Source of the DNA: Tyzzerella sp. An114 | Lineage (GTDB): Bacteria; Bacillota; Clostridia; Lachnospirales; Anaerotignaceae | Length of the DNA stretch: 64,000 nt | Direction: 5' to 3' | NCBI RefSeq assembly: GCF_002161055.1 | Contig: NZ_NFLT01000003.1 | Coordinates: 124,001 to 188,000, forward strand | Shown: positions 27,511-50,628 of the stretch, in pieces | Layout: each line of letters starts with the position of its first letter | Position numbering within the stretch: the first letter of the stretch is position 1 | Translations under genes and position numbers: made by a program | The notes under the pieces: model-generated | Seen by the model: the letters and a program-made list of their open reading frames with translations, nothing else | Databases searched by the model: none | Told to the model about the DNA's origin: nothing

Positions 27511-27774
27511 TCTGAAGAAAAACTTGCTGATATAATTTGGGAAAAAGAACGTGTATCATCAAAATATATTGTAATATTGTGTGAAGAAAATGTGGGTTGG
27601 AAAAAATAAACAACATATACAGTACTTAAAAGACTTGAGGGAGAAGGATTTTTTAAAAATGAAAAAAGTATAGTTTCCTCTGTTATGTCAAAAAATGAAT
27701 ACCTTTCACAACAAAGTTGTAAATTTATAGATAATGCTTTTGGAAGTTTCCTTCCAGCTTTTATATCTGCTTGA
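27511..27774 (+). pseudogene. Broken BlaI/MecI-family repressor gene
   Basis: Translating 27511-27774 gives a recognisable BlaI-like protein: ADIIWEKERVSSKYIV, CEENVGWKK, then TTYTVLKRLEGEGFFKNEK and FGSFLPAFISA. A TAA at 27607-27609 sits where the family has Ser (KKSTTYTVLKRL), so one C-to-A change explains it. The N-terminus and start are missing: the fragment begins right after the glucosidase terminator. There is no ribosome site. It is a decayed paralogue, distinct in sequence from the intact blaI at 44032. Confidence 0.8.
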
Positions 27775-43579: not shown

Positions 43580-43620
43580 AAAATAAAAGCCTGAAATAAA
43601 ATATTTTCAGGCTTTATTTT
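43580..43620. terminator. Bidirectional terminator between the DUF2238-like and PASTA genes
   Basis: AATAAA.GCCTGAAA pairs with TTTCAGGCTTTATT, with T-rich tracts on both sides. Confidence 0.85.
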
Positions 43621-43895
43621 TATTCTGTATATAATATTACTTCAGAATTTTCATATAAAACACTGCCATATTTAGGGTATTGATTTTTTATAATTTTTCC
43701 TCCACCGACAACAGTATAATTTATATTATTTTGATTGAGTATTGAAATTGAATATCCTGTATCTTTATTTGTAAAATCAGGAATTTTAAAACCCTTATAT
43801 TCATTAAAATCTTCTGTTAAATATCCTGTTTGACATAACAATAAATTCATAAAAATGACAAATATAACTCTTATAAATTTAAGTTTTTTAATCAT
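43620..43895 (-). CDS. Orphan exported PASTA-domain protein
   Basis: A 91-residue protein: an N-terminal signal or anchor segment (about 7-25, IRVIFVIFMNLLLCQTG) followed by a single PASTA domain (about 33-91), with IPDFTNKDTGYSISILNQNN and the closing PKYGSVLYENSEVILYTE. PASTA domains bind muropeptides or beta-lactams and normally end PBPs or Ser/Thr kinases. Here one stands alone, divergent from blaI and behind two BlaI-type operators, so it should be co-induced with the PBP downstream. A Cys at the end of the hydrophobic stretch might make it a lipoprotein, but the lipobox is poor. Confidence 0.75.
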   Translation of the reverse strand: MIKKLKFIRVIFVIFMNLLLCQTGYLTEDFNEYKGFKIPDFTNKDTGYSISILNQNNINYTVVGGGKIIKNQYPKYGSVLYENSEVILYTE

Positions 43896-43916
43896 TTAAT
43901 ATCACTCCTATTTTAA

Positions 43917-43932
43917 TATTACAGCTGTAATA
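43917..43932 (-). promoter_or_regulatory. BlaI operator 1
   Basis: Perfect dyad TATTACAGCTGTAATA, matching the BlaI/MecI core TACA-N2-TGTA, just downstream of the PASTA-gene promoter. Confidence 0.85.
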
Positions 43933-43938
43933 TTTTTA

Positions 43939-43967
43939 ATTATTACATACGTAATAATTAATGTCAA
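43939..43967 (-). promoter_or_regulatory. Promoter of the PASTA gene
   Basis: Minus-strand TTGACA (43967-43962) with TAATAA or AATAAT 16-17 bp downstream; operator 2 fills the spacer. Confidence 0.65.
43941..43956. promoter_or_regulatory. BlaI operator 2
   Basis: TATTACATACGTAATA, one mismatch from a perfect BlaI dyad, 24 bp from operator 1 and between the divergent -35 elements. Confidence 0.78.
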
Positions 43968-43972
43968 CAGGT

Positions 43973-44000
43973 TTGACAAAATTTTTATATGTGATAAAAT
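43973..44000 (+). promoter_or_regulatory. Promoter of blaI-blaR1
   Basis: TTGACA (43973-43978), 16-bp spacer, TAAAAT (43995-44000). Confidence 0.7.
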
Positions 44001-44005
44001 AAAAA

Positions 44006-44019
44006 TATTACAAATGTAG
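44006..44019 (+). promoter_or_regulatory. BlaI operator 3 (imperfect)
   Basis: TATTACAAATGTAG keeps the TACA-N2-TGTA core and one full half-site; it covers the expected start of blaI transcription. Confidence 0.65.
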
Positions 44020-44031
44020 GGGTTGAAATGT

Positions 44032-44418
44032 ATGAAAAATATACCTAAGATTTCTGAGGCAGAATATGAGATAATGAAAGTTATATGGGAGTGTGCTCCT
44101 ATAAGTACAAATGATGTTATAGAAAAATTTCAAGGTAAAAGTGAGTGGAGTCCTAAGACAATACAGACGCTTTTATCAAGACTTGTAAAAAAAGGTGCTA
44201 TTGGATATGAGAAAAAGAGTAGAGTTTTTATATATACTCCTCTTGTGGAAGAAAAAGAGTATGTAAATGAGGAGAGTGACTCTTTTCTTAAAAGATTTTA
44301 CAATGGTGCTTTAAATTCAATGGTTTTAAATTTTATTGAGCAAGATAGACTTTCAAAGGATGATATTGATGAATTAAAACAGATACTTGAGAGTAGAAAA
44401 AAGAAAGGTGAAAAATAA
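44032..44418 (+). CDS. blaI: BlaI/MecI-family repressor
   Basis: Winged-helix repressor of the beta-lactam response, 128 residues: ISEAEYEIMKVIWECAPIS, the recognition helix region WSPKTIQTLLSRLVKKGAI, and the dimer domain. The N100-F101 bond in SMVLNFIE matches the Asn-Phe site cut in BlaI/MecI when BlaR1 is triggered. ATG 44032 is preferred over TTG 44023 because AGGGG lies about nine bases before it. One base separates it from blaR1. Operators at its own promoter imply autorepression. Confidence 0.93.
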   Translation: MKNIPKISEAEYEIMKVIWECAPISTNDVIEKFQGKSEWSPKTIQTLLSRLVKKGAIGYEKKSRVFIYTPLVEEKEYVNEESDSFLKRFYNGALNSMVLNFIEQDRLSKDDIDELKQILESRKKKGEK

Positions 44419-44419
44419 T

Positions 44420-46165
44420 ATGGATTTTTTTACGAAAGACTTTTTTGCAAGTTTTTTCGCAGTTTCCGCTGTCATAGTTTTTATAATTATGATAAAAAGA
44501 ATTCTTAAAAATCATATATCTGAAAAATGGCAATATAGAATATATTATCTTGTTTTTTTACTTCTTACATTGCCTTTTGTGCCTTTAAAATATATTAATT
44601 TTATTGATTTTTCACCAAACAATGAAAATATTTTAAAGACTATATCACAAAATACTAATGTTGCAAACTTTGAAAATACAATAAATAGTGGAGATTTTGC
44701 TGTTTCTGTAAAGTCTCATTTTGATTTTTTTAAAATATTTTTTGTTATATGGCTTATAGGTGCAATTATATTAACTGTTGTTATGGTTATAGGATTTGTT
44801 GCTATGAGACAAAAAAGAAAAAACATATCAATGGTTGATTGTAAAATTAAAAATATTTTATATGAATGTAAAAATATTTCAGGTATCAAAAAAAATATAG
44901 ATATAGCTTTGTCTGATGTTAAATCTCCTGTAATATTTGGTATGTTAAAACCTATTATACTTGTTCCTTATAACTGTGTTGAAAAAATGAGTGATAGTGA
45001 AATAAAATATATAATTCTCCATGAGTTAAGCCATTATAAAAACAAAGATATATTAATGAATTATTTAATGTGCCTTTTTCAAATACTTTATTGGTTTAAT
45101 CCTCTTGTATGGATAATATTTAAACAAATGAAAATTGAAAGAGAAATTGTATGCGATAGTTCTGTTTTAAATATGCTTGATGAAGATAATTATACTGATT
45201 ATGGTATGACAATAATACGTTTTGTTGAGACTGTTCCTCAAAAAAGAATTTTTGCTCTTTCAGCAGATATGGGAGGAAGTAAAAAGCATATAAAAATGCG
45301 TATTGAGAAAATAGCTTCATTTACAAAAGAAACTTTATGGTCAAAACTTAAAGGAATAGCTATATTTACAATGGTTTTTGCTGTGATATTGTCACAGGCT
45401 TCTGTAATATCAATTGCAGGAGGATATAATTATTTTAATGATAAAAAAGATAATATAAATATTATAAATCTTGATAAATACTTTGAAGGGTATAATGGAA
45501 GTTTTGTTCTCTATGACATGAATAATGATGAATATACTGTATATAATGAGGAAAAAAGTAGGGAGAGAGTATCTCCAAACTCAACATATAAAATATATAG
45601 TGCTCTTTCAGCCCTTGAAAATGGTGTTATAACAGAGGAAAACTCTCTTATGAATTGGGACGGAGTTTTAAGATACTATGATGAGTGGAATAGAGACTTA
45701 GACCTTTATGGTGCTATGAAATATTCTGCAAACTGGTATTTTGATAAAATAAACAGTATAAATGGTATTGAAAATGTACAAAATGATTTGATAAAAATAG
45801 GCTATGGAAATTGTGATTTTAGTGGTGGAAATGATTGTTGGTTAGAGTCATCTTTAAAAATATCACCATTAGAGCAAGTTGATATATTAAAAGACTTTTA
45901 TACAAATAATTTTGGTTTTTCTCAAAGCAATATTGATACTGTAAAAAATTCAATAAAAATTTTATCAGAGAATGACACTGTTCTTTATGGAAAAACAGGT
46001 ACAGGCAGAATTGATGATAAAGACATAAATGGTTGGTTTGTTGGATTTGTTGAAAAGGGTGATAATGTTTATATATTTGCAACAAATATTGAAGCTGATG
46101 AAAATGCAACAGGTTCGGTTTCAATGGAAAAAACTATTGATATTTTAAATAATGAAATATATTGA
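44420..46165 (+). CDS. blaR1: BlaR1/MecR1-type beta-lactam sensor-transducer
   Basis: A 581-residue membrane sensor. Four N-terminal membrane segments surround a cytoplasmic M56 metalloprotease domain with HELSH (H201-H205), which on signalling leads to BlaI cleavage. After the last segment (about 310-330) comes an extracellular penicillin-binding sensor domain with S388-x-x-K391 (STYK), SAN (436-438) and KTGT (525-528). All catalytic motifs are intact. The start is ATG 44420, one base after blaI. Terminator after the gene. Confidence 0.94.
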   Translation: MDFFTKDFFASFFAVSAVIVFIIMIKRILKNHISEKWQYRIYYLVFLLLTLPFVPLKYINFIDFSPNNENILKTISQNTNVANFENTINSGDFAVSVKSHFDFFKIFFVIWLIGAIILTVVMVIGFVAMRQKRKNISMVDCKIKNILYECKNISGIKKNIDIALSDVKSPVIFGMLKPIILVPYNCVEKMSDSEIKYIILHELSHYKNKDILMNYLMCLFQILYWFNPLVWIIFKQMKIEREIVCDSSVLNMLDEDNYTDYGMTIIRFVETVPQKRIFALSADMGGSKKHIKMRIEKIASFTKETLWSKLKGIAIFTMVFAVILSQASVISIAGGYNYFNDKKDNINIINLDKYFEGYNGSFVLYDMNNDEYTVYNEEKSRERVSPNSTYKIYSALSALENGVITEENSLMNWDGVLRYYDEWNRDLDLYGAMKYSANWYFDKINSINGIENVQNDLIKIGYGNCDFSGGNDCWLESSLKISPLEQVDILKDFYTNNFGFSQSNIDTVKNSIKILSENDTVLYGKTGTGRIDDKDINGWFVGFVEKGDNVYIFATNIEADENATGSVSMEKTIDILNNEIY

Positions 46166-46167
46166 TT

Positions 46168-46203
46168 TAAAAAAAGACAGTTTATTTTAACTGTCTTTTT
46201 TTA
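46168..46203 (+). terminator. Terminator of blaI-blaR1
   Basis: AAAAAAAGACAGTT/AACTGTCTTTTTTT. Confidence 0.92.
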
Positions 46204-46232
46204 TTGACAATTAATTATTACAGATGTAATAT
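46204..46232 (+). promoter_or_regulatory. Promoter of the inducible PBP
   Basis: Consensus TTGACA (46204-46209), 17-bp spacer, TAATAT (46227-46232); operators 4 and 5 overlap it. Confidence 0.8.
46216..46231 (+). promoter_or_regulatory. BlaI operator 4
   Basis: TATTACAGATGTAATA, a full dyad lying between -35 and -10 of the PBP promoter. Confidence 0.87.
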
Positions 46233-46238
46233 ATAAAT

Positions 46239-46254
46239 TATTACAAGTGTAATA
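46239..46254 (+). promoter_or_regulatory. BlaI operator 5
   Basis: TATTACAAGTGTAATA, a full dyad 23 bp from operator 4 and over the expected start site. Confidence 0.87.
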
Positions 46255-46272
46255 TTAATTGGAGGATACCAC

Positions 46273-48561
46273 ATGACAAATGAAAAATATAATAAACCCA
46301 CATATAGAATAATAGTTGTAATGGCTGTTGTTGTGTTTATGTTCATAGTTCTTACAATAAGACTTTATATTTTGCAAATTAAAAATGGAGAAGAACATCT
46401 TAATGAGGCGAAAGCCACATCTTTAAGAACAATACCCATAGAGTCTCAAAGGGGAACAATATATGATAAATGGGGAGTTCCCTTGGCAGAAAATAAAGTT
46501 GTATATGAAATAAAAATGGATTTAAGTATGGAGTATGATAATGTAAACGATATTATTATAAACCTTATAAGACTTTTAAATTCAAAGGGAGAAAATATAA
46601 AATACAATTTGCCTATAACAGAAACAGAGCCTTTTCAATATACTTTTACATCTGAAAATGCAGAAAAACGCTGGAAAACAGATATGGGAATTGAAAGTGA
46701 AAATATGAATATGATAGCCTCTGAACTTTATGATTATTTGAAAAATAAATTTGATATAACAAAAATAGAAGGTTTATCAAAAGAGGAAGAAAGACAGCTT
46801 ATATCCCTTCGTTCTGAAATGTATATGCAGAGATATAAAAAATATAATGATATAACAATATCAGAAGATGTAAGTTATGAAACAATATCAGAAATAGAGG
46901 AGGACTCTGACAAATATAGAGGAATATATATTGAGACAGGTTCAAAGCGTGTTTATAATTTTGGAGAAGCTTTTTCTCATATATTGGGATATACAGGTTC
47001 AATAAATGATACAGAGTTGGAAGATTATAAAGATTATGGATACAGTATGAATGATAAAATAGGAAAGATAGGAATTGAAAAATATTGTGAATTGACTTTA
47101 AGAGGAGATGACGGACAAAAATTAATAGAAGTTGATTCATTAGGAAGACGTGTAACAGAAAGAGAAATAACACCACCACAGAAGGGGGGAGATGTTTTTT
47201 TATCAATAGATAGTAGATTGCAACAGAAAACATTTGAGATACTTGAAAACAATCTTAAAGCTGTTTTAATTCAAAGTATAAATTCAGGTAGCACAACAAA
47301 ATCTGAAATTATAGAAAATATGAGAAATAGTCAAATTGTGTCTGATGAAAAAATAAAAGAAATAGAAAGTCTATCATTAAATGAAATAGTAGATAAAATA
47401 AATAAAAATGAAATAAGACTTAATGAAATAAATATTGAACCATGTACAGGTTCAGTTGCTGTTATTGATATAAATACAGGAAAACCACTGTCTCTTGTGA
47501 CCTATCCTTCCTATGATAATAATAGACTTGTAAATGACTTTGATAGTGATTACTATAATATGCTTTTAAATGATAAGACAACTCCTCTTATAAATCGTCC
47601 ACTAATGGAGAGAAAAGCTCCCGGTTCAGTGTTTAAAATGCTTAGCTCTGTTGTAGGTTTAGAGGAGGGAGTTATAAGTGAAAATACAATAATATATGAT
47701 AAAGGTGAATATAAGGAGGCGGGAAAACCCTATGCAAAATGTCTTGTATATTCAAGATATGGAATAACCCATGGTGCGACAGATGTTAAAAAAGCCTTGG
47801 AGGTTTCTTGTAACTATTTCTTTTATGAAGTGGCTTATAGATTGGGAAATGCCAAAGAGGGTAACACTTTAAACTCAATAGAAACATTTAATAAATATAT
47901 GAAAATGTTTGGTCTTGATGACTATACAGGAATAGAGATTGAGGAGTCAAAACCAGTTATAGCCTCACCTGAAGTTAAAAGAAAATCTATTGAAAATTAT
48001 TATGAAAATCCAACAGAGTCCCAGAAAAAATGGATGGACGGAGACTCTATAAGATGTGCCATAGGTCAATCATATAATAGTTATTCTGTTATGAATATAG
48101 CTAAATATATAACGACTATTGCCAATGGTGGAACAAGATACAAAACATCAATAATTGAAGGAACAAGAGAAAAGGAATTTGAGAGTATAAATTATAATTT
48201 ACCTGAAGTTGAAGAAGTTTTAAATATTAGTAGTGATACAATAAGAATTGTAAAAGAGGGAATGTATAGTGTAACTCATGGAAGTCAAGGAAGTTTAAGA
48301 AATTATTTTAGAGATTTTTCTGTTGAAGTTGCAGCAAAAACAGGAACAGCAGAGGAGGCAAAAGATAAACCTTCTCATTCATGGTTTGCAGGATTTGCAC
48401 CTTATGACAATCCACAAATAGCTGTTGTTGTTATGGTTCCATATGGAGAATTACCTCAAAGTCCTGCTGTAAAAACTGCTCAGGATATATTTGAATTTTA
48501 TTTTTCTTTAAATGAAAATAAAGAGTATACAGATTATTATAGAAATATTCTTGCAGAGTAA
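46273..48561 (+). CDS. Class B penicillin-binding protein (PBP2-like), beta-lactam-inducible
   Basis: A 762-residue membrane-anchored peptidoglycan transpeptidase. One N-terminal membrane segment (about 12-33), a PBP dimerisation domain that starts RGTIYDKWGVPLAENK, and a transpeptidase domain with S452-x-x-K455 (APGSVFKM), S512-C-N514 and K689-TGT. It has no C-terminal PASTA domain and no MecA-type N-terminal domain. Two BlaI operators on its promoter, with BlaI/BlaR1 just upstream, indicate induction by beta-lactams. It may be a low-affinity replacement PBP comparable in logic, not in ancestry, to MecA. SD TGGAGG. Confidence 0.9.
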   Translation: MTNEKYNKPTYRIIVVMAVVVFMFIVLTIRLYILQIKNGEEHLNEAKATSLRTIPIESQRGTIYDKWGVPLAENKVVYEIKMDLSMEYDNVNDIIINLIRLLNSKGENIKYNLPITETEPFQYTFTSENAEKRWKTDMGIESENMNMIASELYDYLKNKFDITKIEGLSKEEERQLISLRSEMYMQRYKKYNDITISEDVSYETISEIEEDSDKYRGIYIETGSKRVYNFGEAFSHILGYTGSINDTELEDYKDYGYSMNDKIGKIGIEKYCELTLRGDDGQKLIEVDSLGRRVTEREITPPQKGGDVFLSIDSRLQQKTFEILENNLKAVLIQSINSGSTTKSEIIENMRNSQIVSDEKIKEIESLSLNEIVDKINKNEIRLNEINIEPCTGSVAVIDINTGKPLSLVTYPSYDNNRLVNDFDSDYYNMLLNDKTTPLINRPLMERKAPGSVFKMLSSVVGLEEGVISENTIIYDKGEYKEAGKPYAKCLVYSRYGITHGATDVKKALEVSCNYFFYEVAYRLGNAKEGNTLNSIETFNKYMKMFGLDDYTGIEIEESKPVIASPEVKRKSIENYYENPTESQKKWMDGDSIRCAIGQSYNSYSVMNIAKYITTIANGGTRYKTSIIEGTREKEFESINYNLPEVEEVLNISSDTIRIVKEGMYSVTHGSQGSLRNYFRDFSVEVAAKTGTAEEAKDKPSHSWFAGFAPYDNPQIAVVVMVPYGELPQSPAVKTAQDIFEFYFSLNENKEYTDYYRNILAE

Positions 48562-48571
48562 GGAGAATTTT

Positions 48572-49234
48572 ATGAAAAAAATATATATTATAACAGCTGT
48601 TTTTGTGTTTATATTTTCGGCTGTTTATGGATATATTTCAACGTGTGAATTTGAAGATGTTAAAGAAAATGTTCAAATAGAAGAACTTAAAACTTATGAC
48701 ACTGAAAATGTTCTTGAAACCAGTTATAATATAAATAAAAAAACAAAAGATTATATTTTAAATTTATATAACACATGGATTGATTTTAAAGAAAATATAA
48801 ATCAAAATAAAAATCCTGAAAATGATTTTAAAAATTCTGAATTTATCAAAACTCTTAAAGAGTATTTTTCAAGTAGAGAAAGCCTTGAGGTAAGTATAGA
48901 AGAACTTTGTTTTTTAATAAATCAAAGAGGATTTGATTATATTGAAAAAAATTGCACTGTTAATAACAAAAATTATACAGTAAGAGTTATATGTTATTCG
49001 GCAAATTTAGATGTACAGGCTGTAACAGACTTACCAGTAAAAAATAAGTGGGTATTTGTTCAAATTTGGAATGATGAATATTTTAAAGGATATACAGTTT
49101 CAGAAAGTGGATATAATATTTTAAATGGTTTTAATATTAATGTTGTGGGAGATAAAATAAATTTAGATATAGAACTAATTGACATTGTAACGAAAAATAA
49201 AGAAATAATTAATTATACACTTAACATTAATTGA
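48572..49234 (+). CDS. Unrecognised membrane-anchored protein of the BlaI-controlled operon
   Basis: 220 residues: a single N-terminal membrane segment (about 3-22, IYIITAVFVFIFSAVYGYIST) and an Asn/Lys/Glu-rich extracytoplasmic part with no domain I can name. ATG 48572 follows AAGGAG, ten bases after the PBP stop, so it is cotranscribed with the PBP; an upstream in-frame start lies inside the PBP gene without a ribosome site. The outside location and co-induction suggest a PBP partner or a wall-stress protein. Confidence 0.75.
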   Translation: MKKIYIITAVFVFIFSAVYGYISTCEFEDVKENVQIEELKTYDTENVLETSYNINKKTKDYILNLYNTWIDFKENINQNKNPENDFKNSEFIKTLKEYFSSRESLEVSIEELCFLINQRGFDYIEKNCTVNNKNYTVRVICYSANLDVQAVTDLPVKNKWVFVQIWNDEYFKGYTVSESGYNILNGFNINVVGDKINLDIELIDIVTKNKEIINYTLNIN

Positions 49235-49266: not shown

Positions 49267-50628
49267 TTAGCATTTAAAATCTGAATCAATATAGTTTGCA
49301 ATAAAACTTGCTTTGAAATTTCTTTCACTACAAATAGAATTAGAATTTGTAGAGTTAACATTAAGGTCTTCTGGAAGAACAAATCTAATATTTTTAACTA
49401 TAACATCTTTACACATAGGATAATTATGAGCTGGTATTGTAATAGTTTTTAAACCTCTCTGATATTCATTTCCCAATTTATCAATTTCCTTTAATATTAC
49501 AGCTAGGGCAATACGTTTTTTAGGACAAACATTTTTTATTTTTAAATTTAATTCAACTATTCTTCCCAGTGATTCCATAATAACATTATCCATATTAACA
49601 GAAACAAAGTCCTTACATTCATTAATTTTAATATTATTAGCCACTGGACAAGGTTCAGGATTAACTATTACATCGCAGTTTACTAATACTGAAGGATTTG
49701 GAAAAATTACTTTGTTTCCTTCTTTATCGTAATATTTTGTTGATTGACTAACTTGTTTTAAACCAGAATTATAATTGTTATGTTTTATAAAATATTCAAG
49801 AAAAGCACTTTCGTTTTCTGTTACACCAAGGTTACCTATTTGCCATTTTATTTTGTTATCTCCACTAATTATAGCAGTTCCCTTTGTTGTAGTTGGAATA
49901 CCTGTTATAATAAAATTAGGATTTATTGTCTCTTCAATAAAAATATTTGTTGCACCTGTTTTTGAAATATTTGATGCTAACTCTGCAAACAATTCTTCAA
50001 GATCTTCTGAATTAGGTGTTACTACAACATGAGAAATGTCTGGGTCCGTTGCCCATTGATTTAAAATATTAATATCAATTCCATTAGAACCCATTAAACC
50101 AATACAATATATAGTTATTCCCATAGATTTTGCATTTTCTGCAATGGGAGTAGGGTCTATTCCTACTGTTGTTTTTCCGTCAGTGAACATTATTATAATT
50201 TTTTTGTTTTGAGATAATGGATTAAAAATTTCCATAGCTTTTTCAAAAGCATCTCCATGATTTGTAAAACCTCCAGAGTTTAGAGAGTTTACAGCAGGTT
50301 TTAAATCTGATACAGAAGTTGTCAGTTGAGAATTAATTTCTGCCACATCTGAAAAACTTACAATTCCAATATGACTTCCAGAACCTATATTTCCATCTTG
50401 ATTGCTATCTGTGGATTTATCAATTATATCAATAAATGTGTTTGCACCGTTTTTCATGTTTTCAAAAGGAATTCCTGCCATACTTCCCGACTTGTCCAAA
50501 ATAAGAACAATATCTGTTGGATTTGATAAGATATCAGGAGCGGCAGAAAGAGCCATTGTCACTTTGATACTTCCATCACAATTTATTTGATTTACATTTA
50601 TTTGTCTGTTTGAACTTGTAATACCCAT
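49267..50628 (-). CDS. Von Willebrand factor A domain protein, non-secreted
   Basis: 453 residues. The VWA domain (about 35-215) has a complete MIDAS: DKSGS, Thr in GGFTNHGD and Asp in FTDGKT. A beta-sandwich part (about 220-320) resembles DUF11-like repeats, and the C-terminal part (about 330-453) is Cys-containing (NVCPKKRIAL, YPMCKDV, CSERNF, ending DFKC). There is no signal peptide or membrane segment, which is odd for a VWA adhesin but fits a protein assembled on the spore from the mother cell. The upstream sigma-K-like promoter supports that; function remains inference. Confidence 0.82.
   Translation of the reverse strand: MGITSSNRQINVNQINCDGSIKVTMALSAAPDILSNPTDIVLILDKSGSMAGIPFENMKNGANTFIDIIDKSTDSNQDGNIGSGSHIGIVSFSDVAEINSQLTTSVSDLKPAVNSLNSGGFTNHGDAFEKAMEIFNPLSQNKKIIIMFTDGKTTVGIDPTPIAENAKSMGITIYCIGLMGSNGIDINILNQWATDPDISHVVVTPNSEDLEELFAELASNISKTGATNIFIEETINPNFIITGIPTTTKGTAIISGDNKIKWQIGNLGVTENESAFLEYFIKHNNYNSGLKQVSQSTKYYDKEGNKVIFPNPSVLVNCDVIVNPEPCPVANNIKINECKDFVSVNMDNVIMESLGRIVELNLKIKNVCPKKRIALAVILKEIDKLGNEYQRGLKTITIPAHNYPMCKDVIVKNIRFVLPEDLNVNSTNSNSICSERNFKASFIANYIDSDFKC

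Follow-up and report, generated by a model that had tools for sequence, protein, structure and literature searches.

Inducible target substitution is textbook knowledge for a single enzyme, MecA, a class B penicillin-binding protein (PBP) under regulators homologous to BlaI and BlaR1, and in the bla divergons the blaI-blaR1 pair stands with a class A or class D beta-lactamase gene (blaZ, blaP, blaCDD). Here we describe a five-gene locus in a stretch of 64,000 nucleotides (nt; hereafter the window) from Tyzzerella sp. An114 (assembly GCF_002161055.1, contig NZ_NFLT01000003.1, positions 124,001 to 188,000), in which regulators of the same kind appear to be wired to a spare elongation PBP2, named PBP2i below, and in relatives also to a division-type or MecA-type partner. 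Such wiring is seen in Clostridia related to Anaerotignum. As judged from its sequence, the locus is likely to be a mec-like divergon in which the effector would be an inducible substitute PBP2 and from which a partner PBP would have been lost. If this function holds, it would help to explain beta-lactam tolerance in Clostridia without beta-lactamases, and would show a repeated recruitment of PBP genes to the BlaI/BlaR1 switch. No report of a PBP2/MrdA controlled by BlaI/BlaR1 was found in the open-licence literature, which is weak evidence of absence, nor was any open-licence paper found on BlaR1/BlaI with a penicillin-binding protein in Lachnospiraceae.

Like the mec divergon of staphylococci and macrococci (mecI-mecR1-mecA/mecB/mecD), with which its repressor and sensor are homologous, the locus has dyad operators at divergent promoters and, as effector, an extra class B PBP, inducible in mec and predicted to be so here. 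It differs in that this effector is of the PBP2/MrdA type without a MecA_N domain, that two dyads stand at the effector promoter, and that a locus-specific surface protein and, in relatives, a second PBP are present. A first-pass annotation of the window had set the locus apart from mec as well as from bla; the contrast with mec was overstated, as MecA is itself a class B PBP and related BlaI/BlaR1 loci hold MecA_N PBPs. The mecD islands are likewise without a beta-lactamase (PMC5341023).

The regulators and the second PBP2

All five open reading frames (ORFs) of the first-pass annotation are present, and by every sequence test made the locus is a BlaI/BlaR1 system that does not fall into the MecA family. 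The blaI gene (44032-44418, forward strand) encodes a repressor of 128 amino acids (aa) that matches Penicillinase_R (PF03965, 2.9e-38) and aligns with MecI over residues 6-121 (3.3e-30), the Asn-Phe cleavage site within its VLNF motif aligning with MecI; in S. aureus BlaI the cleavage site is Asn101-Phe102 (PMC9834060). The sensor-transducer gene blaR1 (44420-46165, forward, 581 aa) encodes an M56 protease and a class D-like, penicillin-binding sensor, scores 5e-196 against NCBIfam blaR1_generic (NF000326), aligns over residues 15-559 with the solved full-length BlaR1 structure 8exs (4.9e-81) and carries HELSH, NSTYK, SANW and KTGTG in its translation. The Pfam, NCBIfam, MecI and 8exs alignments thus agree with the earlier description of both regulators as intact. 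In a scan of a genome-contig collection that yielded 80 loci, one of these (L123) has BlaI and BlaR1 matches within the DNA covered. Elsewhere in the genome holding the window (G000; other G and L codes denote the other sampled genomes and loci), contigs C14, C16 and C34 carry more BlaI-family repressors with M56-type proteins, the latter matching BlaR1 mostly over the protease part, and a BlaI-family match broken by a stop codon lies at about 27511-27771 of the window (G000:C23:151511-151771).

BlaI and a generic BlaR1 are shared with the bla divergon, from which the locus differs in having no beta-lactamase inside it, nor a serine one in the genome by the searches made. PF00905 has ten matches in the genome, none of which sits in an open frame as small as that of a class D enzyme: the shortest frame is 410 aa, and a weak match on C12 stays below cut-off. 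The two PF13354 matches are D-Ala-D-Ala carboxypeptidases. A hidden serine beta-lactamase was rejected across the genome by these two families, the weak C12 match aside, metallo-beta-lactamases not being searched for. The absence of a beta-lactamase claimed earlier holds to that extent, and the proposal of a class B PBP as the likely effector is supported, the operators sitting at promoters.

PBP2i (46273-48561, forward, 762 aa; motifs SVFK, SCN and KTG) consists of PBP_dimer and Transpeptidase domains (Pfam) and scores 466.7 bits against pbp2_mrdA (TIGR03423), above the equivalog cut-off of 455, which bears out its first description as a PBP2-like transpeptidase. It has no MecA_N domain and reaches 110.9 bits against MECA_PBP2A, for which the cut-off is 750. 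The housekeeping place is taken by a different gene, as a second PBP2 of 941 aa stands elsewhere in the genome in a cluster with mreB (Pfam; L074), where two further ORFs are presumably mreC and mreD. PBP2i is consequently not the sole PBP2 of the organism, a condition under which the first-pass annotation would have abandoned its proposal; it is a second copy, PBP2/MrdA by score and not the housekeeping one. The best solved relative of PBP2i is 7rcw (8.7e-72), which we take to be C. difficile PBP2.

The residues D476, C490, H500 and C513 of PBP2i form a tetrad of the kind that defines Zn2+-binding class B PBPs, and the D, C, H and the Cys of SCN are invariant in six BlaI-linked copies. The positions (Asp/Cys, Asp/Cys, His, Cys of SXN) were taken from PMC9334274 on the Zn2+-binding C. 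difficile PBP2; PBP2i matches all four, and metal binding is a prediction for it. C. difficile PBP2 is described as the sole essential class B PBP (PMC12713402); PBP2i differs in being a second, BlaI-linked copy. Some C. difficile strains have an extra class B PBP that could act as a reserve for the essential ones (PMC9334274 and PMC12713402). A MecA_N PBP that faces BlaR1 in L251 (G392), with a dyad 15 nt after TTGAC, offers a parallel to this extra PBP, which differs from PBP2i in being likened there to B. subtilis PBP3 and not to PBP2.

A quick tree of 49 PBP2-like proteins contains a clade of nine from three families to which PBP2i belongs and in which all members are BlaR1-linked (Shimodaira-Hasegawa-like approximate likelihood ratio test, SH-aLRT, 98); the genome's own mre-cluster PBP2 stands apart from this clade. 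Four BlaR1-linked PBP2s of family f5 group among Defluviitaleaceae PBP2s, and that of L202 groups with a Cellulosilyticum PBP2. A single origin of the 14 BlaR1-linked PBP2s is rejected (approximately unbiased test, p-AU 4.5e-9), and PBP2 has therefore been wired to BlaI more than once. The PBP2s of L222 and L223, which lie on the opposite strand after BlaR1, were discarded as candidates, grouping with PBP2s unlinked to BlaR1. A spread of PBP2i on plasmids was rejected as well: the 141 plasmid records that match are all below 60% identity, and the best-placed match (31%) is an mreC-linked PBP.

Operators and promoters

Five TACA-N2-TGTA dyads had been reported in the first-pass annotation. The four at 43920, 44009, 46219 and 46242 are exact, while the fifth, at 43944, carries one mismatch, and the five are spread over three promoters. 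At the promoter of the PBP gene (TTGACA-N17-TAATAT, 46204-46232, forward), the exact BlaI-type dyad TACAGATGTA (46219-46228) starts 15 nt after the first base of the -35 and reaches into the -10, and a second exact dyad, TACAAGTGTA (46242-46251), follows 23 nt past it. The blaI-blaR1 promoter (TTGACA-N16-TAAAAT, 43973-44000, forward) is followed by the exact dyad TACAAATGTA (44009-44018) directly ahead of blaI. The third promoter, on the reverse strand, belongs to a short PASTA ORF; its -35 TTGACA (43962-43967) is followed by N16 and TAATAA, the mismatched dyad TACATACGTA (43944-43953) covers the spacer and -10 at an offset of 14, as in the PASTA-PBP promoter of L069, and the exact dyad TACAGCTGTA (43920-43929; repeat family D1) lies downstream.

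The bare core TACA-N2-TGTA has 162 sites in the genome compared to 68 for a control (7 in the window, 2.2 expected), and was rejected as stand-alone evidence for being too common. With up to two mismatches to the published bla/mec consensus the window yields 15 rows versus 8.6 expected, a total little above chance that is reached by 4 of 100 shuffles; with up to one mismatch the four exact sites alone remain, and by sequence operators of the bla/mec type do stand at the controlled promoters. The longer form TTACA-N2-TGTAA occurs 26 times in the genome (8 for the control), three of these at the locus; of the 23 elsewhere, 22 fall within open frames, which were chosen by length. Pairing is rare: exact dyads 8-20 nt apart are found at three places in the whole genome and at none for the control, namely at this locus, on C45, and on C34, there directly upstream of a further BlaI-family gene. 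Two BlaI proteins of C. thermocellum are reported to need pairs of inverted repeats, of a different motif (PMC8457756). The lone intergenic TTACA-N2-TGTAA site outside the locus (L262; G000:C1, near 270641) lies 28 nt ahead of a DUF362-ferredoxin gene; genes resembling the latter by eye stand near the locus in G014 and G040 (L073 and L075).

The phase between promoter and dyad is conserved. Among the effector promoters of the window and related loci, 18 of 22, from four family codes, have a TTGAC and then, 14 or 15 nt later when counted first base to first base, a dyad with no more than one mismatch. The offset is 15 nt in 16 cases and 14 nt in two, the PASTA ORF of the window and the PASTA-PBP of G016 (L069), the genome whose PBP2i stands nearest to that of the window in the tree. 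Outside this list are the operon-internal genes for the L214 PASTA-PBP and the L208 and L221 MecA_N PBPs, at which no dyad is found, and the interrupted G018 gene. Eight further MecA_N promoters at BlaR1 loci include six with a dyad 15 nt after TTGAC; at those of L217 and L246 dyads are present and TTGAC is absent.

Related loci, the PASTA frame and LipoX

A similar gene order, which the first-pass annotation had proposed to look for, does occur in other genomes. Of the 392 genomes sampled across the order, 61 have a BlaR1 match at E <=1e-60; for the class the figure is 5 of 391, and G000 is counted both times. The order-wide surveys of BlaR1 and LipoX scored, for each genome, its three or five top candidates. 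A class B PBP belongs to the BlaI/BlaR1 unit in 17 of the 61, where the PBP lies at most three codirectional genes from BlaR1 or is divergent from blaI, and 12 have, as in the bla divergon, a class D beta-lactamase beside the same regulators, in any orientation; no genome has both. The 17, with G000 entered by hand and the interrupted gene of G018 included, are a lower bound, as PBPs convergent with BlaR1 are outside the rule. Indeed, in seven of the remaining 32 genomes (G717, G740, G661, G712, G586, G716 and G010) a MecA_N PBP lies near BlaR1 or faces it, and an exact dyad stands at most 170 nt upstream of this PBP.

Several relatives carry a PBP2 plus a PASTA-type or a MecA/PBP4(5)-like PBP, the latter kinds (MecA_N and PBP4(5)-like) being known for drug insensitivity. 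In L200, L201, L208, L221 and L222 a MecA_N PBP runs in the same direction as BlaR1, and in L251 it is on the opposite strand after BlaR1; those of L200, L208 and L251 match PBP4(5) at 8.5e-155 to 5.1e-177, with 517-590 bits below the cut-off of 700. In G612, a class A PBP (transglycosylase and transpeptidase; L224, 12075-14894) that comes after the BlaI-divergent PBP2 was dropped as a partner. MecA_N PBPs near or facing BlaR1, each with an exact dyad at most 170 nt upstream, make up mec-like loci in other Lachnospirales genomes (L213, L215, L216, L217, L218, L227 and L246), five of them with the 15-nt TTGAC layout. DUF6070 genes (PF19546) stand on the opposite strand at BlaR1 in seven loci of f6 and f2 genomes (L215, L216, L218, L220, L227, L230 and L231); they adjoin BlaR1 in six, the tested L215 copy being one gene away, and come after the MecA_N PBP in L215, L216, L218 and L227. 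In L215, L216 and L218, exact dyads precede the first of two genes after the PBP, and the L231 gene likewise has exact dyads upstream.

Divergent from blaI in the window is an ORF of 91 aa (43620-43895, reverse) with an N-terminal hydrophobic anchor and, as first described, a single PASTA domain (PF03793, 6.4e-08). It has neither a dimerisation nor a transpeptidase domain and is thus not itself a PASTA-PBP of the SpoVD/FtsI kind; its best NCBIfam matches are weak and fall on the C-termini of the PBP2X (1.7e-4) and SpoVD (0.0066) models. The gene divergent from blaI in G016, G034, G026 and G040 (L069, L071, L072 and L075) encodes a complete class B PBP with PASTA at its end; a PASTA-PBP with an interrupted frame takes this place in G018 (L079), the gene is absent there in G014 and G029, and the contig of G052 ends too soon to tell. 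The PASTA-PBPs that were scored (L069, L071 and, of another family, L214) are nearest to SpoVD, under its cut-off. Since the same place in relatives is held by a PASTA-ending class B PBP, the 91-aa ORF is read as probably the remnant of such a PBP after an in-frame internal deletion, and this reading is preferred to the earlier one of a designed, detached module. The ORF retains the position, promoter layout, N-terminus and C-terminal PASTA of the relatives' PASTA-PBP, the N-terminal likeness being suggestive only, as 4 of 205 other hydrophobic N-termini match the relatives as well or better. Its PASTA domain is 29-39% identical to those of relatives, which among themselves show 22-42%, and second codon positions are least changed. 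The domain is thus no more diverged than its counterparts, and the deletion may therefore be recent, or the remnant may still be in use.

The last gene of the locus (48572-49234, forward, 220 aa) encodes an anchored protein, here named LipoX, which, in line with its initial listing as unrecognised, matches no Pfam or NCBIfam model over cut-off and has no clear relative in the PDB; a single-sequence structure model has a mean predicted local distance difference test (pLDDT) score of 56. With a profile of eight copies, the family is found in 11 of the 392 genomes of the order, each time at a BlaI/BlaR1 locus, eight of the matches being the profile's own source sequences, picked at such loci. Informative for the linkage are thus the other three (G527, G558 and G606) and the lack of matches elsewhere among up to five candidates per genome. 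LipoX is present at all nine loci of the PBP2i clade and absent from the f5 PBP2 loci. The window copy is the shortest of the eight aligned and matches positions 1-213 of the 296 in the profile. The locus supplies a first context for this family, as well as a plain account of the PASTA mini-protein. In L070-L073, L077 and L079, LipoX is followed by a protein with SLH and GH18 domains (by Pfam for L072, by similarity to it for the others) that is absent from the window locus.

Predicted mechanism, competing readings and neighbouring genes

In the proposed mechanism, a beta-lactam would acylate BlaR1, the M56 protease domain of which would cleave BlaI, and BlaI would then come off the dyad pair that extends into the -10 of the promoter ahead of the effector gene. 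The effector so released would be PBP2i, produced together with the surface protein LipoX, and would take over cross-linking in elongation for as long as the housekeeping PBP2 is blocked. In relatives the locus is fuller and holds a second class B PBP, of the PASTA (SpoVD/FtsI) or MecA type; this partner would have been lost here through the in-frame deletion, its anchor and PASTA domain being left behind a recognisable BlaI-type promoter. A wider version, in which BlaI/BlaR1 of Lachnospirales commands a replacement transpeptidase set for both elongation and division, with LipoX as a hitherto undescribed surface protein of some of these systems, the set having been assembled repeatedly from different PBP stocks and here shrinking to the elongation arm, is put forward tentatively.

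Several observations weigh against an inducible substitute PBP2. Near the active-site motifs PBP2i differs little from the housekeeping PBP2, a total of 11 columns being diagnostic (446, 447, 458, 491 and 700 included), and a low drug affinity is not visible in its sequence. The sequences establish the gene content, the motifs of the regulators, the layout of operators and promoters, its conservation in several families and the status of PBP2i as a second copy; induction, binding and cleavage of BlaI, a low drug affinity, the take-over of elongation and the deletion are predictions. By the rules used, a class D enzyme or a PBP near BlaR1 is missing from 25 of the 61 BlaR1 genomes, and the regulators therefore serve other ends too; the G029 locus keeps BlaI, BlaR1 and LipoX without any PBP there. 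Two sampled genomes of the same genus have no BlaR1 match at 1e-60, and the flanks reveal no empty site in same-genus genomes; G002 shares the gene on the upstream side (protein identity 87%), whereas the opposite flank is not shared. Finally, 4 of the 22 effector promoters are without the TTGAC-dyad layout, those of the MecA_N genes of L201 and L222 and of the PBP2 genes of L208 (two dyads, no TTGAC) and L226.

The closeness of PBP2i to the housekeeping enzyme around the active site, together with the SLH and GH18-like protein after LipoX in six loci, would fit a function in wall repair, where BlaR1/BlaI would sense wall damage or muropeptides and top up a PBP2 of ordinary affinity, PBP2i not being drug-insensitive. 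We hold this to be rather unlikely: the BlaR1 sensor belongs to the class D-like type that binds beta-lactams, and many related loci hold a MecA_N or PBP4(5)-like gene, of kinds associated with drug insensitivity. A point in favour is the peptidoglycan fragment that reportedly sets off beta-lactam resistance in Bacillus licheniformis (PMC3305447). That regulators and PBP merely adjoin, by chance or as a decayed relic, is highly improbable; the core dyad is common in the genome and both LipoX and the PASTA gene are shortened here, but the arrangement recurs in several families with a conserved promoter phase, paired dyads are almost unique in the genome, and the frames of the regulators and PBP2i are intact.

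The 91-aa PASTA protein could also be a functional stand-alone module kept by selection, as a binder of muropeptides or lactams or as a regulator of PBP2i or the divisome. Its open frame and BlaI-type promoter are retained, and the similarity of its PASTA domain to those of relatives and the codon pattern would be expected of a domain in use; the same codon pattern is expected from a recent deletion. As the 91-aa form is found in one genome only, the relatives show a pattern of repeated loss (full PBP in four, interrupted in one, absent in two) and the proximal dyad has a mismatch, such a module appears improbable, and the ORF is better regarded as a deletion remnant.

Next to LipoX, and convergent with it, lies a gene for a VWA-domain protein (49267-50628 of the window, 2e-25), and beyond it are ORFs that, judged by eye, resemble SPFH/zinc-ribbon and PspA-like proteins.

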